A stretch of 37,977 nucleotides of DNA. Origin: Nostoc sp. GT001 (GTDB lineage: Bacteria > Cyanobacteriota > Cyanobacteriia > Cyanobacteriales > Nostocaceae). The position numbers and the translations under genes are program-made. The stretch spans positions 7,068,166-7,106,142 of the forward strand of contig NZ_JAUDRJ010000003.1 of assembly GCF_030382115.1 (NCBI RefSeq). The letters are read 5' to 3'. Shown here in pieces: positions 694 through 12,870 of this stretch (position 1 is its first letter; each line of letters starts with the position of its first letter). The notes beneath the pieces were generated by a model. That model made no database searches, had not been told where the DNA came from, and saw only the letters and a program-made list of their open reading frames with translations.

Positions 694-904
694 CTAGTAG
701 TCTGTCCCAAAAGTTTTGAGAGGTTAGTGGTGTTCAGATCCCCGACTTCTTAGAGAAGTCGGGGATCTAGCAGCCCCTCAAAATCAATGGGACAGACCAC
801 TAGTACAATGTCTAAGCTAGTAATGAAGGGTTTGTAGTAAGTAAGACTTTAGTGCTTAGAAAATAAGGACTAAAGTCCTTACTAAGAACTTGACAGACTA
901 CTAG
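694..904. repeat. MITE-like compound inverted-repeat element between pth and tatA
   Basis: The 15-bp end ctagtagtctgtccc (694-708) recurs inverted, with one mismatch, at 789-803, enclosing a 110-bp unit. Its centre is a perfect 15-bp inverted repeat (736-750 and 754-768) with a 3-nt loop. A second inverted copy of the first 13 bases lies at 892-904, so an outer pair spans 211 bp and includes another hairpin (834-891). The outer right end overlaps the last codon and stop of tatA. No ORF is present, so any movement would need a transposase in trans. The structure is seen directly; the MITE interpretation is inference. Confidence 0.7.
834..891. repeat. dispersed hairpin repeat, copy 1 (gtagtaag...cttactac family)
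   Basis: An imperfect inverted repeat built on 'gacttta' and 'taaagtcctta' arms. The same motif recurs at 13578-13624 and, in perfect form, at 21042-21091. It sits just beyond the tatA stop on the minus strand and could act as a transcription terminator there, though no strong T-tract follows. Confidence 0.55.
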
Positions 905-1173
905 CTAGGTTGGGAAGAACTAGCGGTATCCTGCTCAGATTTCGCAGGGTGGATTTGCTTGGGTTCCAATTCAGCAGTAGTCTTGACAACTTCTTCTAAC
1001 TGTTCTGCTTCTTTTTGAAACTCGTTTTGAAACTCCTTAGAAGCTTCTTGGAAACTACGAATTGTTTTGCCCACACTCCGACCGATCTCTGGTAGCTTTT
1101 TTGGGCCAAAGATTAACAGCGCTACCACCATAATTACAGCCATTTCTGGCAGACCGATACCAAATATATTCAT
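901..1173 (-). CDS. tatA: Sec-independent protein translocase subunit TatA/TatE
   Basis: Pore-forming subunit of the twin-arginine translocon, which exports folded proteins across the thylakoid or plasma membrane. The 90-residue product begins MNIFGIGLPEM, has one transmembrane helix (about residues 4-21), the diagnostic FGPKKLPE hinge (about 22-29), an amphipathic helix and a charged Glu/Lys/Gln-rich tail, matching TatA/E rather than TatB. The reading frame is open for 14 further codons upstream, but ATG at 1173 is preceded by an AGGAGA ribosome-binding site at good spacing and begins exactly at the conserved N-terminus, so it is preferred. The stop codon lies in the end of a repeat element. 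pth follows on the same strand. Confidence 0.94.
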   Translation of the reverse strand: MNIFGIGLPEMAVIMVVALLIFGPKKLPEIGRSVGKTIRSFQEASKEFQNEFQKEAEQLEEVVKTTAELEPKQIHPAKSEQDTASSSQPS

Positions 1174-1307
1174 TTTTTGTCTCCTGTAAACTATAGAACT
1201 ACTACAGAAACTCACATATTATTATGTAGTCTACTCAATAATCGCCTATCATAGAAAGCGATGCCTGCGGCGAGCTACGCTAACGCCCCACCAGCGAGTG
1301 ATGCCTT

Positions 1308-1869
1308 ATGTCTCTGACAATCAAAGACTTAGAACAATTACAATCACAGAATCCTGATTGGCGAATGGAGCTAGTAGAGGGAAACATCATCGTTATGGGA
1401 GCCATCCGATTATCAGTCAGACGAAATTGGTTCTCGTCTGCTGAAATTTTTGAATATATGGGTCATGCCTCGCAAACTGGGACGTGTTACTGGTTCTAGT
1501 GCTGGTTTTATCTTGCCCAGTATTGAAACAAATGAAACTGGAGGCGACCCAGAAAAAAGAAACCTACGCGCTCCAGATGTTTCTTTTGTTCGAGCAGAAC
1601 GACTCAAGAAGACTCAGCGTGACTTTGTGCAGTTAGTACCCGATCTCATGGTTGAGGTCAAATCGAAAAGTGATCGCCTCAAACCACTCCAAGAAAAGAT
1701 TAAACTATTCCTATAACTAGGATCTACAGTGGGTATTCTCATTGACCCTGATAAACTTTTAGTAACAGTTTATCGCTCTAACCTTGAACCAGTAGTTTTA
1801 AAAGATAACGACAAACTGACAATACCAGAATTACTTCAAGGTTGGGAATTAACAATAAAAGAACTGTAG
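1308..1869 (+). pseudogene. broken Uma2-family (DUF820) nuclease-like gene
   Basis: Read across two lesions, this is a complete protein of about 187 residues of the Uma2 family, a PD-(D/E)XK nuclease-fold family expanded in cyanobacteria with unsettled function. The first frame gives DWRMELVEGNIIVM and then shifts at the GGG run 1397-1399. Continuing in the other frame gives PSDYQSDEIG, PRKLGRVTGSSAGF, the family PDVSF motif and the VEVKS core (Glu-Lys of the nuclease motif). A TAA at 1714-1716 then replaces what is probably GAA (KLFLELGS expected); after it the frame continues through GILIDPDKLLVTVYRS to a natural TAG at 1869. One extra G and one G-to-T change explain both lesions, so decay is recent. 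Confidence 0.85.
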
Positions 1870-1888
1870 CCACCTGAGTTTGAGTAAA

Positions 1889-2152
1889 TTAAGTACTTAA
1901 TAACATCAAATTGAAGTCAAGCACCATTCGTGTTTGATAGCGCAAAATGTCCAGTTGAGTATTGAGAGATTCTAGTTGAATAAGTTTATCTTTAGCATAT
2001 TTGGCTTGAATTAATCCCTCAAATAAATCGTACAGTTGATTGATTATCCTGCCGCCTAAAGTAAACTTATGAATTTTCGGCAATTTCTCAACAATTAAAA
2101 CGTACCACTCAATACAATCATAAGTCTTTTGGATGACCGATAATTATTTCAT
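1889..2152 (-). pseudogene. avd: remnant of a DGR accessory variability determinant (bAvd, four-helix bundle)
   Basis: bAvd binds the reverse transcriptase of diversity-generating retroelements and is needed for mutagenic retrohoming. The readable part runs SVIQKTYDCIEWY, then KLPKIHKFTLGGRI, then AKYAKDKLIQLESLNTQLDILRYQTR, typical of cyanobacterial DGR-associated Avd. The natural ATG is at 2150-2152, but its third codon is TAA (2144-2146) where GAA would give the expected MKELSVIQ. A TTG at 2083 opens a 64-codon frame lacking the first helix. The C-terminus also stops early (LLST, stop at 1889), missing about the last 30-40 residues, right where the Uma2 pseudogene ends. It follows the variable protein by 109 bp, the normal DGR order. 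Family assignment is from remembered sequence patterns. Confidence 0.75.
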
Positions 2153-2261: not shown

Positions 2262-5200
2262 CTACTGAAGAATCCTCCCAACAGCACACACAACACGAAA
2301 ACTAAAAATGTTGCTGTGGAAGCCAAGGAAGAAGATGAGGTTGCGAGACGCGGAACGGCAGTAATTAGGATTGTCGAACCAGGAACCGCCGCGCAGTATG
2401 GCTCTTCCTATTTTTTGAGAAAGTTTATTATTATCATCAAACCAAGCACTGCCATCTGTTGGTGCACCTTCATAGTTATCGTGCCAATCGTCAAGACACC
2501 ATTCCCATACCTGACCGTGCATATCGTATAACCCAAAAGCGTTAGCTACTTCAAAACTGCCCACTTCTGTTGTTTGTCCTCGATATGTTCCTTTCACACC
2601 AGCACGGTAAGTATAGTTAGCATCGTAGTTAGCCAACTCTGATGTAGTTGTTTCGCCAAAATGGAATGGAGTCGTAGTTCCGGCTCTACAGGCATATTCC
2701 CATTCTGCTTCACTGGGAAGACGGTAGCTTTTGCCTGTGTATTGAGAGAGGCGATCGCAAAATTCCACCGCTTCAAACCAAGATACTCTCTCAACTGGTC
2801 GATTTTCTCCTTTAAAATAGGATGGGTTAGGTTTCAGTTCGCGGTTTACTTGCGGGAGAGATGTGACTGCTTGCCATTGTGCTTGGGTGACTGGGTACTT
2901 GCCCATAAAAAAGGGTTGAACCTTTACTTCATGTTGAGGTTTTTCAAAGCTATCTCCTTCCCCTTGGGGTGAACCCATCATGAATGTACCACCAGGGATG
3001 GCAACCATATCGAGGGTGATGTCCAGTATGCCACTGAGAGAGGGGCTTTGTAGAGTTTCGGTGAAGTATTGGGCAAGTTTTGTTTCTCGTTCGATGATTT
3101 CGCCGCGATGGTTGACGGTGATGCTTTCAAACTCAAAGGACTCTAGATCGTCACTTTCTCGTCCCAAAGATTGAACATCTTTAAATACTTCTCTAGAAGA
3201 AAAAGTAGCGATCGCATTTCTTACTAAGTCTTCTCCCACTCGATCCTGATTTCTTTGGGCTGCCTCTATTGCCAAATCCAATCTAACCAAAGGGTCTTGA
3301 TTCGCTTCAATCCAACGCCAATAAGGACTTAATGAAGCTGTTATCCTCGCACTGCGACAGATTTTATCTAAACTCATTTCATGCTCATAACCCCATTCAA
3401 GAAACAAGATTAAGTTTGAGTTTTCTTCCAGAAGCAACTCCTGCCCTTTCTTCTCATCTCTATTGCCAAAATGCTTGAGAACTGTGTCACACAAATTACT
3501 ATAATAAAAATCTAAAACTTGAGGAGCAAGATAGTCAATTCCTCTACCTTTCTGCAATTTACTTTGTGCATAAGTACGGGCAGGTTCGGGTAAAGTTACT
3601 CTCCAATCAGATGCACTAAGAGACTTTTCTGCCATAGAAAACTTGAGCAATTCCATTAAAGCCTTATTTCCACTTCTGCCCCGAATAGCCATAGCTAAAT
3701 CCCGACTCAACCCACTAGGAAAAAAAGCCAATAAAGGAAATATATCTTGTCCTTCTACCGATAACATTTCAAAGGAGCGCTCTAAAGTTATCCGCAGACT
3801 TCTGTCTTTTCTTTGTTCAGGAGAATAATCGTCAAGAATTTCTAATGGTTCAATGTCCAAATCTTCACACAGCATCTTGAGAGTACATTGAGTTTCTGCC
3901 ATATAAGATGCTGCTAGTTTAATGGGTAAGGGATAGCCATCAAGAAACTTTACTAAAAGATTAAAATCTGACACCAAATCATCATTATCTCCCCATTCTG
4001 CTTCTAATGGTGCATATTTTTTAAATATCTGTCTCGTTTCTGAAGCTCCCATGCTGTAAACTTCTTGTTGACGGCAATCAATATCCCTTACTAAAGAATC
4101 ACGACAAGTTAACAACAGTCTTAAATTAGGACACTGTTCTAAAAGCGAGTTCAAAAGTTTAATTAGTTCATTGGATTCTTTCTCAATCAATTTATCCAAA
4201 TCATCGAGAATCAAAAACAATCGACTATTCCTTAACTCTTTCTCTAAAGCAAAACTCCTTAATTCCAGACTCTGTGTAACTTTGATAATTAGCGTTCCTA
4301 CAGAATCAGTATCGCGCAAACTAATAAACCAAACTCCATCCTTATAGCGATCGCGCTCATGTAACCACTGAGCAACGGCATAAGCTAAGGCAGTTTTACC
4401 TATTCCTCCCATACCATGAAGAGCAATACAACGATTATCCGACTCTACTAGTTCTTTAATTACCTGATGTATTTCTTGCCTGCGTCCGACAAAATTTGGA
4501 TCTTTACGGGGAATATTAGTATTTGACCACTGAGGATAGATAACTTGGTGAGAATCGGCTGGTTCGATAATCAGCGATTGATTATGGTCAGTTTGGGGTA
4601 GCAATCGAAATTTGAAGGCTTCATCAAAATTAACTCCTTGCCTAAAAGTCTGAGAGTTAAACAGTTTTATTAATTTATCATCAAGTTTAACTGCATTACG
4701 ACTCAATAAAAAACTATTTGCAACTGAATTCTGATTGAATAATGCCTGATAAAGTCGTCGAGAAAAACATCGAGCTGCAATATCTAAAATTTTATCTTCA
4801 GCATTAACCGCAATTACATGAGACACTCCTGCTTTTACAAAAGCTTGAGCTAACTTTTCGGAATGACAGGCATTCAATAATGCTAATTGACAGGGTGGTT
4901 GCTTTTGGTTGGATAGGGCGATCGCGAGTTCTTCTTCACTAAAAGAACGAGTAATTCCCACTTCATCTTCTAACACCAAAGCTGTATTATCCCGATCTCT
5001 CATTCCATGACCAATAAAATGAATAATCAGTGGTTTGACACGATGAGACAACACATCTTGTAGAGTCTGTGAGGTGGCTACTTTAACCACTATTTCTACT
5101 GCTATAGGGTGAGATATATCCTCTAACACCAAAGCAATAGCATCAATTTCTTCCTGAATCGATAAATTCTCTACCGCCAATAATTCTTCAGTCAGCAGAG

Positions 5201-5309
5201 GGGCTGAAAACAAGATCAGAATTTGATTACTGAACGAATTATCTTGTTTAGTAAATTTTTCTACCCCTGGACTAAGGGGAACTTTTTCAGCTACTTTCGA
5301 GACAGCCAT
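2262..5309 (-). CDS. CHAT protease - NB-ARC NTPase - FGE-sulfatase variable protein (DGR target)
   Basis: A 1015-residue modular protein. Residues about 25-235 form a CHAT (caspase-like) protease with the His-Gly pair at 101-102 (IHFIGHG) and catalytic Cys148 (LLNACHS). Residues about 270-520 form an NB-ARC STAND NTPase: Walker A GMGGIGKT with Lys305, Walker B LFLILDD (Asp369-Asp370) and a GYPLPIKL motif near 458. A helical region with a winged-helix-like part follows (about 520-720). Residues 757-1011 are an FGE-sulfatase domain (VAIPGGTFMMGS, RLPSEAEWEYACRAG, HGQVWEWC, LRGGSW, FRVVCA), the C-type-lectin-like fold used by DGR variable proteins. Its final segment is the presumed variable region. 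The likely role is a self/non-self or stress sensor in which the NTPase oligomerises and activates the protease; that is inference from related STAND systems. It overlaps the upstream small ORF by 19 bp. Confidence 0.9.
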   Translation of the reverse strand: MAVSKVAEKVPLSPGVEKFTKQDNSFSNQILILFSAPLLTEELLAVENLSIQEEIDAIALVLEDISHPIAVEIVVKVATSQTLQDVLSHRVKPLIIHFIGHGMRDRDNTALVLEDEVGITRSFSEEELAIALSNQKQPPCQLALLNACHSEKLAQAFVKAGVSHVIAVNAEDKILDIAARCFSRRLYQALFNQNSVANSFLLSRNAVKLDDKLIKLFNSQTFRQGVNFDEAFKFRLLPQTDHNQSLIIEPADSHQVIYPQWSNTNIPRKDPNFVGRRQEIHQVIKELVESDNRCIALHGMGGIGKTALAYAVAQWLHERDRYKDGVWFISLRDTDSVGTLIIKVTQSLELRSFALEKELRNSRLFLILDDLDKLIEKESNELIKLLNSLLEQCPNLRLLLTCRDSLVRDIDCRQQEVYSMGASETRQIFKKYAPLEAEWGDNDDLVSDFNLLVKFLDGYPLPIKLAASYMAETQCTLKMLCEDLDIEPLEILDDYSPEQRKDRSLRITLERSFEMLSVEGQDIFPLLAFFPSGLSRDLAMAIRGRSGNKALMELLKFSMAEKSLSASDWRVTLPEPARTYAQSKLQKGRGIDYLAPQVLDFYYSNLCDTVLKHFGNRDEKKGQELLLEENSNLILFLEWGYEHEMSLDKICRSARITASLSPYWRWIEANQDPLVRLDLAIEAAQRNQDRVGEDLVRNAIATFSSREVFKDVQSLGRESDDLESFEFESITVNHRGEIIERETKLAQYFTETLQSPSLSGILDITLDMVAIPGGTFMMGSPQGEGDSFEKPQHEVKVQPFFMGKYPVTQAQWQAVTSLPQVNRELKPNPSYFKGENRPVERVSWFEAVEFCDRLSQYTGKSYRLPSEAEWEYACRAGTTTPFHFGETTTSELANYDANYTYRAGVKGTYRGQTTEVGSFEVANAFGLYDMHGQVWEWCLDDWHDNYEGAPTDGSAWFDDNNKLSQKIGRAILRGGSWFDNPNYCRSASRNLIFFLGFHSNIFSFRVVCAVGRILQ
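2265..2392 (-). other. probable DGR variable region (VR)
   Basis: This covers the last 43 or so codons of the FGE-domain protein. After the fixed GGSW, codons at the exposed positions are nearly all NNC or NNT, for example aac ctc atc ttc ttc ctt at residues 990-995. That is the footprint expected when AAC/AAT codons of a template are randomised at adenines. Fixed elements (CRSA, SFRVVC) and a final GGGAGG-containing stretch resembling an initiation-of-mutagenic-homology segment bracket them. The residues created (F, L, I, F, F, L) are unusually hydrophobic where unmutated relatives are Asn-rich. No template repeat is present in the window to confirm this. Confidence 0.72.
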
Positions 5310-5644
5310 TCTTCTATTTCTTCATCAGTAGCGGTGCTTAAATCAAGAGAGGGACGAACTGGGTGTTCTAACGTGCCTTTTGGTTCTATCCCTTTTTCTC
5401 GCAATTTTCGCCGCCAATTATTGATCGCCTTAGCGACTTTGATACTGTACTCTATCAAATTGGCTGTTGCTGCTATCCCTCCAACTACTGTAGCTACAAA
5501 AACTATGTCATCTGCACCTAATATTCGACTTGGTGACTTTTGCACATTGATTGAACTCATCCCCAGCAATGTTTCTAAAGACTCTATTTCATTTGAGGGC
5601 AGTTGGGATGAAATCACTATGCTACAGAGAGGAATTTCGCTCAT
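5291..5644 (-). CDS. small protein translationally coupled to the CHAT/NB-ARC gene
   Basis: A 117-residue protein of no family I can name with certainty. The N-terminal half is mixed; residues about 43-62 (ADDIVFVATVVGGIAATANL) form a Gly/Ala-rich hydrophobic stretch that could be a membrane helix or the core of a helical hairpin. A basic segment (NNWRRKLREKG) and an acidic tail (DEEIEEWLSRK) follow. Its last codons overlap the start of the CHAT/NB-ARC gene by 19 bp (5291-5309), so the two are surely co-transcribed and probably translationally coupled. It resembles in size and position the small constant components that accompany STAND/CHAT conflict proteins in multicellular bacteria; that match is inference. 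An AGAGG-type ribosome site precedes the ATG. Confidence 0.75.
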   Translation of the reverse strand: MSEIPLCSIVISSQLPSNEIESLETLLGMSSINVQKSPSRILGADDIVFVATVVGGIAATANLIEYSIKVAKAINNWRRKLREKGIEPKGTLEHPVRPSLDLSTATDEEIEEWLSRK

Positions 5645-6852: not shown

Positions 6853-7857
6853 CTAATGGCTTGCCACTACCTCTCCTTCTAGGCGAACGAGTCGGTCTGC
6901 CAAAAGTTTCTCAAGGTCTTCTAGTGCCTTGGTGAAACCTTTAATACCTTCGTCTAGTTTGTCAGTTGCCATGCGGTCAGCGGCGTGCATTTTGTCATAG
7001 TTCGCTTTGTCAATGGATATCTTTTCAATTTCCAAATTTGCTGCCTTGGCGGGGTCAAGTTTACGTGGCAGTTCTGCAACAGTTGACTGTAATTCAGCCA
7101 AAAGCGACGGTGAAATGGTCAGCAAGTCACTACCTGCAAGTTCAGTAATTTCACCAAGGTTACGGAAACTAGCTCCCATAACTTCGGTTTTATAGCCAAA
7201 TTTCTTGTAGTAGTTGTAGATTTTGGTGACAGACAAAACACCTGGATCTTCGGCCGCTGGGTAGCTATCGCGTCCGGTATCTTTTTTGTACCAGTCGAGA
7301 ATCCGGCCAACGAAGGGAGAAATTAGGGTAACGCCAGCTTCAGCACAAGCGATCGCTTGGTGAAGACCAAATAACAAGGTAAGGTTACAGTGAATACCTT
7401 CTTTTTCGAGAATTTCCGCAGCGCGAATGCCTTCCCAAGTGCTGGCAATTTTAATTAAAACGCGATCGCGGCCAATTCCGGCAGCTTTATACTGGGCAAT
7501 TAAGTCCCGTGCTTTAGTCAGAGTGGCTTCCGTATCGTAGGACAAGCGAGCATCCACTTCCGTAGACACGCGACCGGGAATGATTTGCAAAATCTTTAAT
7601 CCAAAAGCAACTGCCAAACGGTCAAACGCTAGAGAAACTATCTGTGCTTGGGTGGCTCCGGCTCCAGCATCTTTTTTTGCTTGGAGTAAAGTTTGATCGA
7701 CAATTCCCTGATATTCTGGCATTTGCGCCGCAGCAGTAATCAGAGAAGGATTGGTGGTGGCATCTTGGGGTTTAAACTTTTCAATTGCCTGGATATCCCC
7801 TGTATCTGCGACCACAACAGTCACTTCTCGCAATTGTTCCAGTAAATTCTTAGACAT
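6853..7857 (-). CDS. tal: transaldolase (TalB type)
   Basis: Transfers a dihydroxyacetone unit between sugar phosphates in the non-oxidative pentose phosphate pathway; cytosolic. The 334-residue product is the length of the classical TalA/TalB subfamily. Visible active-site elements are ADTGDI (Asp18), the DATTNPSLI signature (32-40), VLIKIAST with the Schiff-base Lys136, the following CNLTLLFG, and [16 protein letters not shown] ribosome site precedes the ATG. It is the third of three minus-strand sugar-metabolism genes (gap1, pyk, tal), with gaps of 263 and 148 bp. The clustering suggests joint use in glycogen or sugar breakdown, a heterotrophic or dark-type metabolism in these organisms. 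Confidence 0.97.
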
Positions 7858-11031: not shown

Positions 11032-12870
11032 TCAAGTGGGTTGGACAAATCGCTTAATTTCACCACAGGCAATATAAGACTTGCCATCCGGTGCGGTTTT
11101 GACTTCATCAACAACGTAAAGCATTCCTTCCTCGCGAACCGATCGCGGAAAACGCATGTTCCAATCCGGTTCATATCCGTCGGAAACCACCCTAGCACGT
11201 AGTTTGCTGCCATCTTTGACACATTGAACTAAAATGCTGTCTCCTACACTGTCAGTTGTGGGCAGATCGGCAGCACTGGCAGGGCCTTTGGAAGCTTTAC
11301 CTGTGTTAGCTGGATACGATTGTCTAGGGGCAACAAAGATATCTGTTTCACCAGGTTGAGCAAAACGGGTAATCTTACCACGTACCCGATAGAAAGTAGC
11401 ATCGCTTGAAAGTTCCAATCCTTCAACAACATAACGTGCCCCCTCGGCACGAATGGCACGAGGAAACTGGATGTTCTTGGTTGAATCATAGCCTTCGGAC
11501 ATGACCTTGACCCGCAGTTTACCCCCTTCACGAACGCAGTGCAATTCAACACCTGAACCGACTTCATTCACAATGGGCATGGCGTACACTTCATCGCCAG
11601 TAGTGACACCGCGACCTACCAAATCGCTGCGATTGCGCGTCATCGTTTGGTAAGTCTGATCTCGCATCTCTTTCCGTCCGGCATTGCCTAAAGCTTTTTG
11701 AGCGATTCGACTGGCGAAATATTCAAGCTGATCGATTTCTTCAGCAATTTCAAAATTCTCATTCAACCCTTTATCCCGCAAATCTTTCACAAGCGATCGC
11801 AGGGTTTGTTCAGCTTCCTGATGCTTGCCATGTTCAGCGAGATGAAGTCCAGTCTCTTTGGCCTTAGCGATGGTAAGGCGACTCAGTTCCAGAATTATAT
11901 GACTCGTAGCAGCAAAAGCTGCTTCCTCAATGGTGCCAACTTTGGCGACGACATCGACTGTACCTGACACGCTTTGAATGCGGTCATCTTGCACAACATC
12001 GGCGCTGTAATGCAATTTCATCACAGGTAAATCGCCAACTTGAGCACTTGATATCCCCAGACTCAAACCGAGAAGTTTATCTTCGCCCTCGTAAAGCTCT
12101 CCCAAGGTGATGACAGTTTGACCTGCATCATTCTGACTAACTTTAGCCAGACTTAAGGTATCAACCAGGCTGACACCATTAGCCAATTCAAGTGTCACCT
12201 TGAGGTTCTGTCCCACTACTGCTCTGAGACTGTCTAGCTCAATACTAAACACTTCAGTTGCTTCGTCGATGCTCTGAATGAAGTAGAAGTTGCCCGTGGC
12301 TGCCCTTGCCATCCCAATCAACAGGTCTTCATTAAAACCCTGAGCAAAACCTAGCGTAGTTGTGATAATGCCTTCCTCAGCTTTTTGCCCTGCTGTCGCC
12401 GTCAGTATCTTGGGGTCTTGAATGCCCATATTGGCATGACCATCGGTAAGTAGGAGAACACGGTTGATTTTTTGCGGGTCGAGTCGCGTTTTCACGTGTT
12501 CGCAGCCTTTGAGCCATCCCCCCGATAAGTTGGTAATACCACCTGCTCTCACCTTGCGGATGGAATTTTTCAGTGTAGATTTGTTAGTCACAGCTTGGGG
12601 TGGCACAACACTATCTACTTCATCGTCGTAAACAACTACTGAGAGAATGTCATCAGGCTCAAGTTGATCTACCACAGACTCAGCGGCTTTGAGTGCGTGA
12701 TGCAAGGGAGCGCCTGCCATAGAGCCGGAACGGTCAATTACAAGCGAAAGGTTAAGGTTACGTCGAGGAGATTTAGCTATATCAGTACGAAAACGTAGCA
12801 GAATATCAGTCTTTAATGAAGATCCTGCGGCGAGGATAGATTGGTCAAATTCGTAACTTGTCTTAATCAT
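11032..12870 (-). CDS. von Willebrand factor A domain protein with duplicated C-terminal module
   Basis: A 612-residue protein. After a short N-terminal strand region, residues about 38-210 form a VWA domain with an intact metal-binding MIDAS: Asp46-x-Ser48-x-Ser50 (DRSGSM), Thr113 (GGITNL) and Asp143 (LLTDGHAN). Residues about 220-310 look like a beta-sandwich domain and about 312-400 are helical. Two copies of a roughly 75-residue module end the protein (about 434-506 and 543-611), each with a pattern like 'C-V-[KR]-[ED]-G-x-K-L-R-x-[KR]-V' and ending in [KR]RFxQP. No signal peptide or membrane span is seen, so it is probably cytosolic. Function is not known; similar proteins occur with stress or conflict genes. 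It is on the same strand as gap1, with a repeat-filled gap between. Confidence 0.85.
   Translation of the reverse strand: MIKTSYEFDQSILAAGSSLKTDILLRFRTDIAKSPRRNLNLSLVIDRSGSMAGAPLHHALKAAESVVDQLEPDDILSVVVYDDEVDSVVPPQAVTNKSTLKNSIRKVRAGGITNLSGGWLKGCEHVKTRLDPQKINRVLLLTDGHANMGIQDPKILTATAGQKAEEGIITTTLGFAQGFNEDLLIGMARAATGNFYFIQSIDEATEVFSIELDSLRAVVGQNLKVTLELANGVSLVDTLSLAKVSQNDAGQTVITLGELYEGEDKLLGLSLGISSAQVGDLPVMKLHYSADVVQDDRIQSVSGTVDVVAKVGTIEEAAFAATSHIILELSRLTIAKAKETGLHLAEHGKHQEAEQTLRSLVKDLRDKGLNENFEIAEEIDQLEYFASRIAQKALGNAGRKEMRDQTYQTMTRNRSDLVGRGVTTGDEVYAMPIVNEVGSGVELHCVREGGKLRVKVMSEGYDSTKNIQFPRAIRAEGARYVVEGLELSSDATFYRVRGKITRFAQPGETDIFVAPRQSYPANTGKASKGPASAADLPTTDSVGDSILVQCVKDGSKLRARVVSDGYEPDWNMRFPRSVREEGMLYVVDEVKTAPDGKSYIACGEIKRFVQPT

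Follow-up and report, generated by a model that had tools for sequence, protein, structure and literature searches.

The gene at positions 2262..5309 (minus strand) of a 37,977-nucleotide stretch of Nostoc sp. GT001 DNA (contig NZ_JAUDRJ010000003.1, positions 7,068,166 to 7,106,142; hereafter the window) probably encodes an NLR-like sensor-executioner whose hypermutable tip has been retired and whose effector cassette is exchangeable at one chromosomal slot. According to the mechanism that we propose, the C-terminal lectin-like domain of this 1015-amino acid (aa) protein would bind a ligand, after which its NB-ARC NTPase would switch and oligomerise, and its N-terminal CHAT protease would be unleashed, probably on or together with a 117-aa partner encoded by an overlapping gene. 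The binding face would have been made by a diversity-generating retroelement (DGR), through adenine-directed hypermutation from a template repeat (TR). The DGR machinery at the slot would later have been lost, leaving behind a truncated copy of the accessory gene avd joined to a Uma2-type gene. From this arrangement we infer an immune, cell-death or anti-phage role for the large protein.

Three Pfam domains were detected in the product of this open reading frame (ORF), all with matches exceeding the curated cut-offs and all encoded on the minus strand: a CHAT (caspase-like) protease domain (residues 43-197, positions 4719..5183, PF12770, E = 6e-11), an NB-ARC/AP-ATPase domain of the NB-ARC/NACHT kind (residues 278-490, positions 3840..4478, PF00931, E = 2.7e-13) with the P-loop GMGGIGKT at residues 299-306, and an FGE-sulfatase (C-type-lectin-like) domain (residues 767-989 as delimited by the hidden Markov model, positions 2343..3011, PF03781, E = 4.2e-51). 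No variation was observed across 52 aligned homologs at His101 and Cys148, at the P-loop residues G299, G301, G302, G304, K305 and T306, or at Asp369 and Asp370. At the sequence level the protein therefore possesses the His/Cys catalytic pair of CHAT proteases as well as the Walker A and B motifs of a STAND/NLR-like NTPase placed between effector and sensor, in agreement with the initial annotation, which had described an intact caspase-like protease, an intact STAND NTPase and an FGE-sulfatase domain of the kind diversified by DGRs. When a profile of the homologs was compared with solved structures, 38 sequences were matched at E<=0.001, among which FGE-type proteins predominated (PvdO, 9.3e-50; 2y3c, a Treponema variable protein, 6.5e-32); matches outside the FGE group included the NLR Roq1 (4e-7) and the PDB CHAT protein 8tl0 (6.4e-7). 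An AlphaFold2 model of the large protein had a mean predicted local distance difference test score (pLDDT) of 77, and a Foldseek search with it returned PvdO, 2y3c and Apaf-1 (4.9e-11), the last with low whole-chain TM-scores. The Apaf-1 and Roq1 matches accord with the position of the NB-ARC domain between effector and sensor, which is shared with Apaf-1 and plant NLRs. Their sensors are WD40 or LRR domains, whereas here the sensor is lectin-like and the protease is fused in the same chain. Of 7996 scored candidate proteins, 6481 matched at E<=0.001, and the six nearest aligned homologs were 88-92% identical. Comparison with the sister genome gave a dN/dS of 0.24 for codons 1-856, indicating that this part of the gene is under purifying selection.

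The tail of the protein displayed the codon pattern from which DGR activity had originally been suspected. Codons ending in C or T make up 34 of the last 40 (85%), as compared with 52% gene-wide, and the 40-codon window in which this fraction peaks (87.5%) begins at codon 970. We delimited the variable region (VR) by this NNC/NNT-rich pattern, together with comparisons to templates and relatives, to codons 973-1008 (positions 2286..2393, minus strand). The nearest natural template found, the best among 24 reverse transcriptase (RT) loci scanned, belongs to locus L156 of another genome of the genus (G048); relative to it, 19 of the 34 template adenines are changed in the VR as compared with 8 of the 83 other bases (p=3.2e-7). 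Comparisons with three further natural templates yielded p=2e-6, 2e-6 and 5e-5, the counts being identical for loci L155 and L058. In addition, a full-length relative of the gene, 73% identical, was found beside a complete DGR in a Microcystis aeruginosa metagenome-assembled genome (L040), in the order target, Avd (NF033474, 1.7e-38), RT (motif GNLTSQ) and template. The VR of this relative differs from its own template at 21 positions in a 70-base stretch, all 21 of them template adenines; a few non-adenine mismatches occur beyond this stretch, toward the 3' end. More generally, 76 related loci taken from named genomes were searched for pairs of segments with mismatches located at adenines in one member of the pair; matches were obtained at 11 loci, and the 10 displayed hold 13 VR/TR pairs. 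The same scan drew attention to a possible inverted TR/VR pair at about position 3770 of L083 and its minus-strand partner, with 24 of 28 mismatches at adenines.

Relatives provided a second line of evidence. The tails are hypervariable among homologs with 88-92% identity overall, and in the six pairs formed by the VRs of G050, G051, G014 and G032, 17-22 of 31 adenine sites differ as compared with 0-5 of 61 other sites (p 6e-12 to 2.4e-8); the most extreme pair, G050/G051, differs at 19 of 31 adenine sites and at 0 of 61 others (p=6e-12). G020 was excluded from this test, its VR start motif being altered. For the six pairs among the four cyclase-like-FGE genes described below, pN in the VR was 0.25-0.32 and pS 0.02-0.15, whereas the FGE codons directly upstream of the VR gave pN of 0.04-0.08 and pS of 0.13-0.22. 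Together these results strongly indicate that the tail is a DGR variable region: it has the C-terminal VR on a C-type-lectin/FGE fold with adenine-directed substitutions that mark a historical DGR target. That it might instead be an ordinary fast-evolving FGE surface on which the NNC/NNT pattern is coincidental can draw on the fact that 52% of the gene's codons end in C or T anyway. This explanation is strongly contradicted by the adenine-specific contrast with natural templates, by the same contrast in 6 of 6 pairs of slot relatives, by the high VR pN with low pS and by the avd relic that adjoins the gene, and we consider it very improbable. By eye, the tails of homologs P0014 and P0015 look frameshifted and the VR end of P0009 looks duplicated.

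Tblastn with an intact Avd query revealed, directly downstream of the large gene, a relic of avd at positions 1904..2152 (minus strand; 60% identity, E 6e-33), which corresponds to residues 1-83 of 117, contains a stop at codon 3 and is truncated. This relic indicates that a DGR once sat at the slot, and it was the sole DGR trace found in the genome. No intact Avd was seen, the stop-bearing relic beside the gene being the sole copy seen; elsewhere the genome was not searched for Avd. The assembly of Nostoc sp. GT001, which comprises 6 contigs and has a stated completeness of 100%, was searched for the near-identical template and DGR RT that the initial annotation had anticipated; neither was found. 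An intact DGR RT used as query produced 16 weak matches (best E 9.1e-10, 28% identity), as compared with 66-75% identity in other genomes possessing a DGR RT. The genome contains 20 RVT_1 matches. Among the 10 inspected, seven have a group-II-type GTPQG motif, one is of plant Ty3 type and two, assigned by eye, are retron-like and Abi-like. The Ty3-type match lies on small contig C6 (L003), which carries pieces of a retrotransposon polyprotein (RT, RNase H and integrase-like, by eye) and is probably plant DNA contaminating the assembly. With the VR as query we retrieved the VR and, beyond it, no match longer than 28 bases, so no second VR-like copy was detected in the genome; the Microcystis and G048 templates likewise matched the VR and otherwise at most 28 bases. 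We therefore rejected the candidate of an active DGR in this genome. The suggestion that the gene is programmable at present did not survive these searches, which returned neither a DGR-type RT nor a template, with a truncated avd bearing an in-frame stop as neighbour. The initial annotation had also named two signs that would speak against a DGR-made tail, absence of a template from the genome and tails that are identical in close relatives or differ there at positions other than adenines; no such template was found, while the tails of relatives do differ, and mainly at adenine positions. On this sequence evidence the tip is DGR-made and now looks orphaned, and most likely it is a fixed variant.

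The slot is flanked on the right by a conserved gene at 901..1215 and on the left by a gene at 6853..7857 (both minus strand), which we take from their protein sequences to be tatA and a transaldolase gene. The tatA-pth flank was matched in 53 of 53 genomes of the genus, and up to ~12 kb around it was surveyed per genome by tblastn (E<=1e-5), with contigs ending early in G006, G036, G041 and G039. A CHAT-NB-ARC-FGE gene with the 117-aa partner occupies the slot in two genomes (this one and G050). Four others (G051, G014, G032 and G020) carry a cyclase-like-FGE gene together with a PycTM/2TM-like protein, two (G023 and G001) carry an avd scar without target, and two carry another FGE gene (G013 and, in part, G033). 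In the remaining 43 of the 53 genomes neither an FGE cassette nor an avd scar was detected at this threshold, and an RT at the slot was detected in 0 of 53. The gap between the transaldolase gene and tatA measures ~0.8-1.1 kb in genomes without FGE insert or scar (G031, G021, G035 and G006) as compared with ~5.7 kb in the window. Since this slot is filled in relatives by another effector cassette that bears a tip of the same kind, the cassettes appear from these comparisons to be exchangeable. The 2TM partner in G051 matched a PADLOC effector model at 4.3e-36 and Pfam PycTM at 6.4e-5, the latter below the cut-off; those of G014, G032 and G020 are 88-92% identical to it, the G020 frame being interrupted, with a longest ORF of 115 aa. 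We presume that class-III-cyclase-like motifs are present in the cyclase-like domain of these occupants. Profile matches for this domain were weak (GGDEF at 0.04 in 1 of 4 members, Cas10d at 0.01 in 1 of 4, PDB cyclase 3mr7 at 0.7), and PADLOC gave no match for the whole 504-aa protein. Pycsar-type systems combine a cyclase with PycTM. These alternative occupants, which lie outside the window itself, resemble them in pairing a cyclase-like-FGE protein with a PycTM/2TM-like protein, and differ from them in the weak profile matches of the cyclase-like domain and the lack of a PADLOC match for the whole protein.

The avd relic is joined to the 3' end of a Uma2-type gene (1402..1884, plus strand), which in the window is broken by a stop codon, is an intact 192-aa ORF in G050, G051 and G020, and has a full-length match in G023. 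The avd-Uma2 junction of the window is common to G050, G051 and G023, while G001, G014, G020 and G032 have different sequence at or before the junction point. These differing junctions may reflect several losses, or a single loss followed by insertions. In the sister genome (L031, about positions 11170-11300) repeat-like sequence stands in place of the middle of the avd relic, both ends being kept.

A number of observations weigh against the reading of the protein as a sensor-executioner with a retired tip of its own. At the level of the protein, VR residues 976-988 and 992-995 have pLDDT below 50 in the AlphaFold2 model, PADLOC returned weak NTPase matches alone for the large protein (best 3.7e-5), and no convincing family was found for the 117-aa partner. 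At the level of the genome, the individual inspection of RVT_1 matches covered 10 of 20. The scar itself is ambiguous: because the window's relic and its counterpart in G051, which carries a cyclase-like-FGE gene, share 92-95% identity, the scar may derive from the DGR of an earlier cyclase-like-FGE occupant of the slot, in which case the CHAT cassette may have arrived before or after DGR loss. We suppose that the large gene itself, not an earlier occupant, was the target of the lost DGR; what the relic attests is the former presence of a DGR at the slot. Comparison with the sister genome complicates the history of the tip further. Over the VR's first half, the sister is the same at 10 of 12 adenine sites, a level of agreement reached by 64 of 3160 VR pairs. 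Import of one tract does not account for how the two genomes differ, and no close donor of codons 856-972 was found in 217 family genomes, the best being 89% identical. Finally, among 15 genomes in which the large gene has homologs, nine also contain a match to a DGR RT, one of the nine matches being a fragment, and a DGR may have acted in trans in the past.

The divergence from the sister bears directly on this last point. Upstream of the VR, codons 857-972 (positions 2393..2741, minus strand) are raised but patchy in divergence: 29 of 72 synonymous sites are changed there, whereas codons 1-856 have changes at 80 of 558 (p=1.1e-6), and differences per 60 bases run 10, 11 and 15 in codons 857-916, 6 and 4 in codons 917-956, and 16 in codons 957-976. 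Within the VR, which is two codons shorter than that of the sister, 5 of 54 bases differ in the first half and 20 of 39 in the second. Rewriting by a DGR does not extend to the region equivalent to codons 857-956. Some recombination in the tip region is therefore likely, these codons having diverged outside the reach of DGR rewriting, and we take recombination as a source of later tip change. Having found divergence raised outside the VR too, we dropped the VR differences from the sister as proof of DGR action after loss. A single imported tract carrying the present tip was likewise weakened as a candidate, divergence alternating between high and low across codons 857-976 and between the VR halves, and no one breakpoint stood out cleanly when the FGE domain was scanned.

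The patchy divergence takes weight from the retired-tip and exchange readings and adds it to a diversification of the VR in trans, now or recently, by a visiting DGR on a plasmid or lost replicon absent from the assembly. A DGR copy enters at the second-half side of the VR. Within the VR, the strong difference from the sister is confined to that half, and its change could equally come from late trans retrohoming. The VR of the window moreover falls in a shorter template class than that of the sister, and its nearest match at positions other than adenines is with the VR and template of G048 (3-4 of 53 differ), whose DGR sits on a 292-kb contig. This DGR (L211, contig C5) is complete and has two tandem FGE targets, and the contig could be a plasmid. 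Trans action has been reported in another bacterium (Dore et al. 2024, PMC10907252; here and below, papers are cited from the parts of them available to us). Against it stand the complete six-contig genome without detectable DGR-type RT or template and the raised divergence outside the VR, and we judge it unlikely. Among relatives, matches to the large gene at E<=1e-100 were found in 33 of 53 genus genomes, mostly to the FGE part alone, and a DGR RT at E<=1e-50 in 10 of 53, two of these being partial with a stop. For 9 of the 13 homolog loci yielding a VR, that VR could be set against RT loci of the same genome. A matching template was seen in L040 alone; for the 8 other loci no matching template was found. 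With the exception of L176, where a trivial 17-base match turned up, their best stretches (25 to 123 bases) had non-adenine mismatches numbering 3 to 17; some of the RT loci are fragments that possibly exclude the template. Orphan tips thus seem common in this sample.

With regard to function, the protein could be a developmental or stress signalling protease of the orthocaspase type rather than an immune effector. Signalling roles for cyanobacterial DGR targets have been argued for (Vallota-Eastman et al. 2020, PMC7517822), and the slot is flanked by genes resembling housekeeping genes. On the other hand, the alternative cassette of G051 at the same slot includes the PycTM/2TM effector-like partner matched by PADLOC, and STAND-FGS proteins with DGRs have been proposed as counter-invader systems (PMC8195603). 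We regard signalling as rather unlikely, though somewhat less so than trans diversification, and prefer the sensor-executioner. A wider history can be put forward tentatively: DGRs would make a repertoire of lectin-like tips, the machinery would be deleted, perhaps repeatedly and with differing avd scars left at one slot, and tips, parts of tips and entire cassettes, with either a CHAT protease or a Pycsar-like cyclase as effector, would then be exchanged between lineages by recombination at the slot. If this doubtful but possible history were true, DGR-made sensors would behave as interchangeable heritable immune modules.

The kind of system is known. STAND-FGS conflict proteins with DGRs and diverse N-terminal effectors have been described by Kaur et al. 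2021 (PMC8195603), the DGR association of conflict systems also in PMC7159879, and DGR targets in multicellular bacteria have been presented as putative antigen sensors in an adaptive-immunity-like setting by Dore et al. 2024 (PMC10907252). The large protein shares with the Kaur proteins an N-terminal effector or adaptor, a central STAND/NTPase module and a C-terminal FGS/C-type-lectin domain. Those proteins have a DGR nearby or elsewhere in the genome, whereas here none was found while an avd scar is traceable, and relatives of the present strain differ at one slot in their entire effector cassette. The Dore candidates are similar in that C-type lectin targets are fused to NACHT/STAND and effectors (CHAT in a figure legend) and in that incomplete loci are reported; the present case differs in that no intact RT or template was found and in concerning one gene in one lineage. 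Closest to the loss described here is the work of Vallota-Eastman et al. (PMC7517822), which reports CHAT-like domains in variable proteins and a cyanobacterial remnant VR without RT, in the paralog all3226 with remnant TR-VR homology, and whose authors suggest removal of the machinery after selection of a good variant. Here, by comparison, the loss is visible through a deletion junction that four genomes have in common; further relatives show other junctions, and the effectors at the slot differ. In the open-licence papers searched no description of this slot was found. As far as these searches show, the apparent novelties are the shared deletion scar, the lack of an RT at the slot in any occupant seen, and the different whole effector cassettes that a single genus harbours at one slot beside a DGR scar. 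The fate of a DGR sensor after loss of its machinery is little described in the literature searched, and the locus offers an orderable case, with a shared avd scar, a gene under purifying selection, tips that still vary among relatives and more than one kind of effector at the slot; thanks to the scar, the order in which these events occurred could be tested in isolates.

The 117-aa partner gene lies at 5291..5644 (minus strand), in overlap with the beginning of the large gene. A partner gene precedes 14 of 14 homologs examined, and the match ends overlap alike in 12 of 14. Because it is such a constant companion, its product is a natural candidate for a substrate or adaptor of the putative protease. 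Of 122 candidate proteins, 116 were homologs of it, and its AlphaFold2 model (mean pLDDT 79.8) is alpha/beta; a fold search with it matched no solved structure at E<=0.001. EACC1 was matched weakly by 2 of 46 members of the partner family (best E 0.0058), which may be chance, unrelated families matching more members (Phage_portal 15, HTH_32 10). At the right end of the slot, window positions 694-803, ~110 bases between tatA and pth, are a dispersed repeat that recurs at many places in this and in other genomes of the genus.

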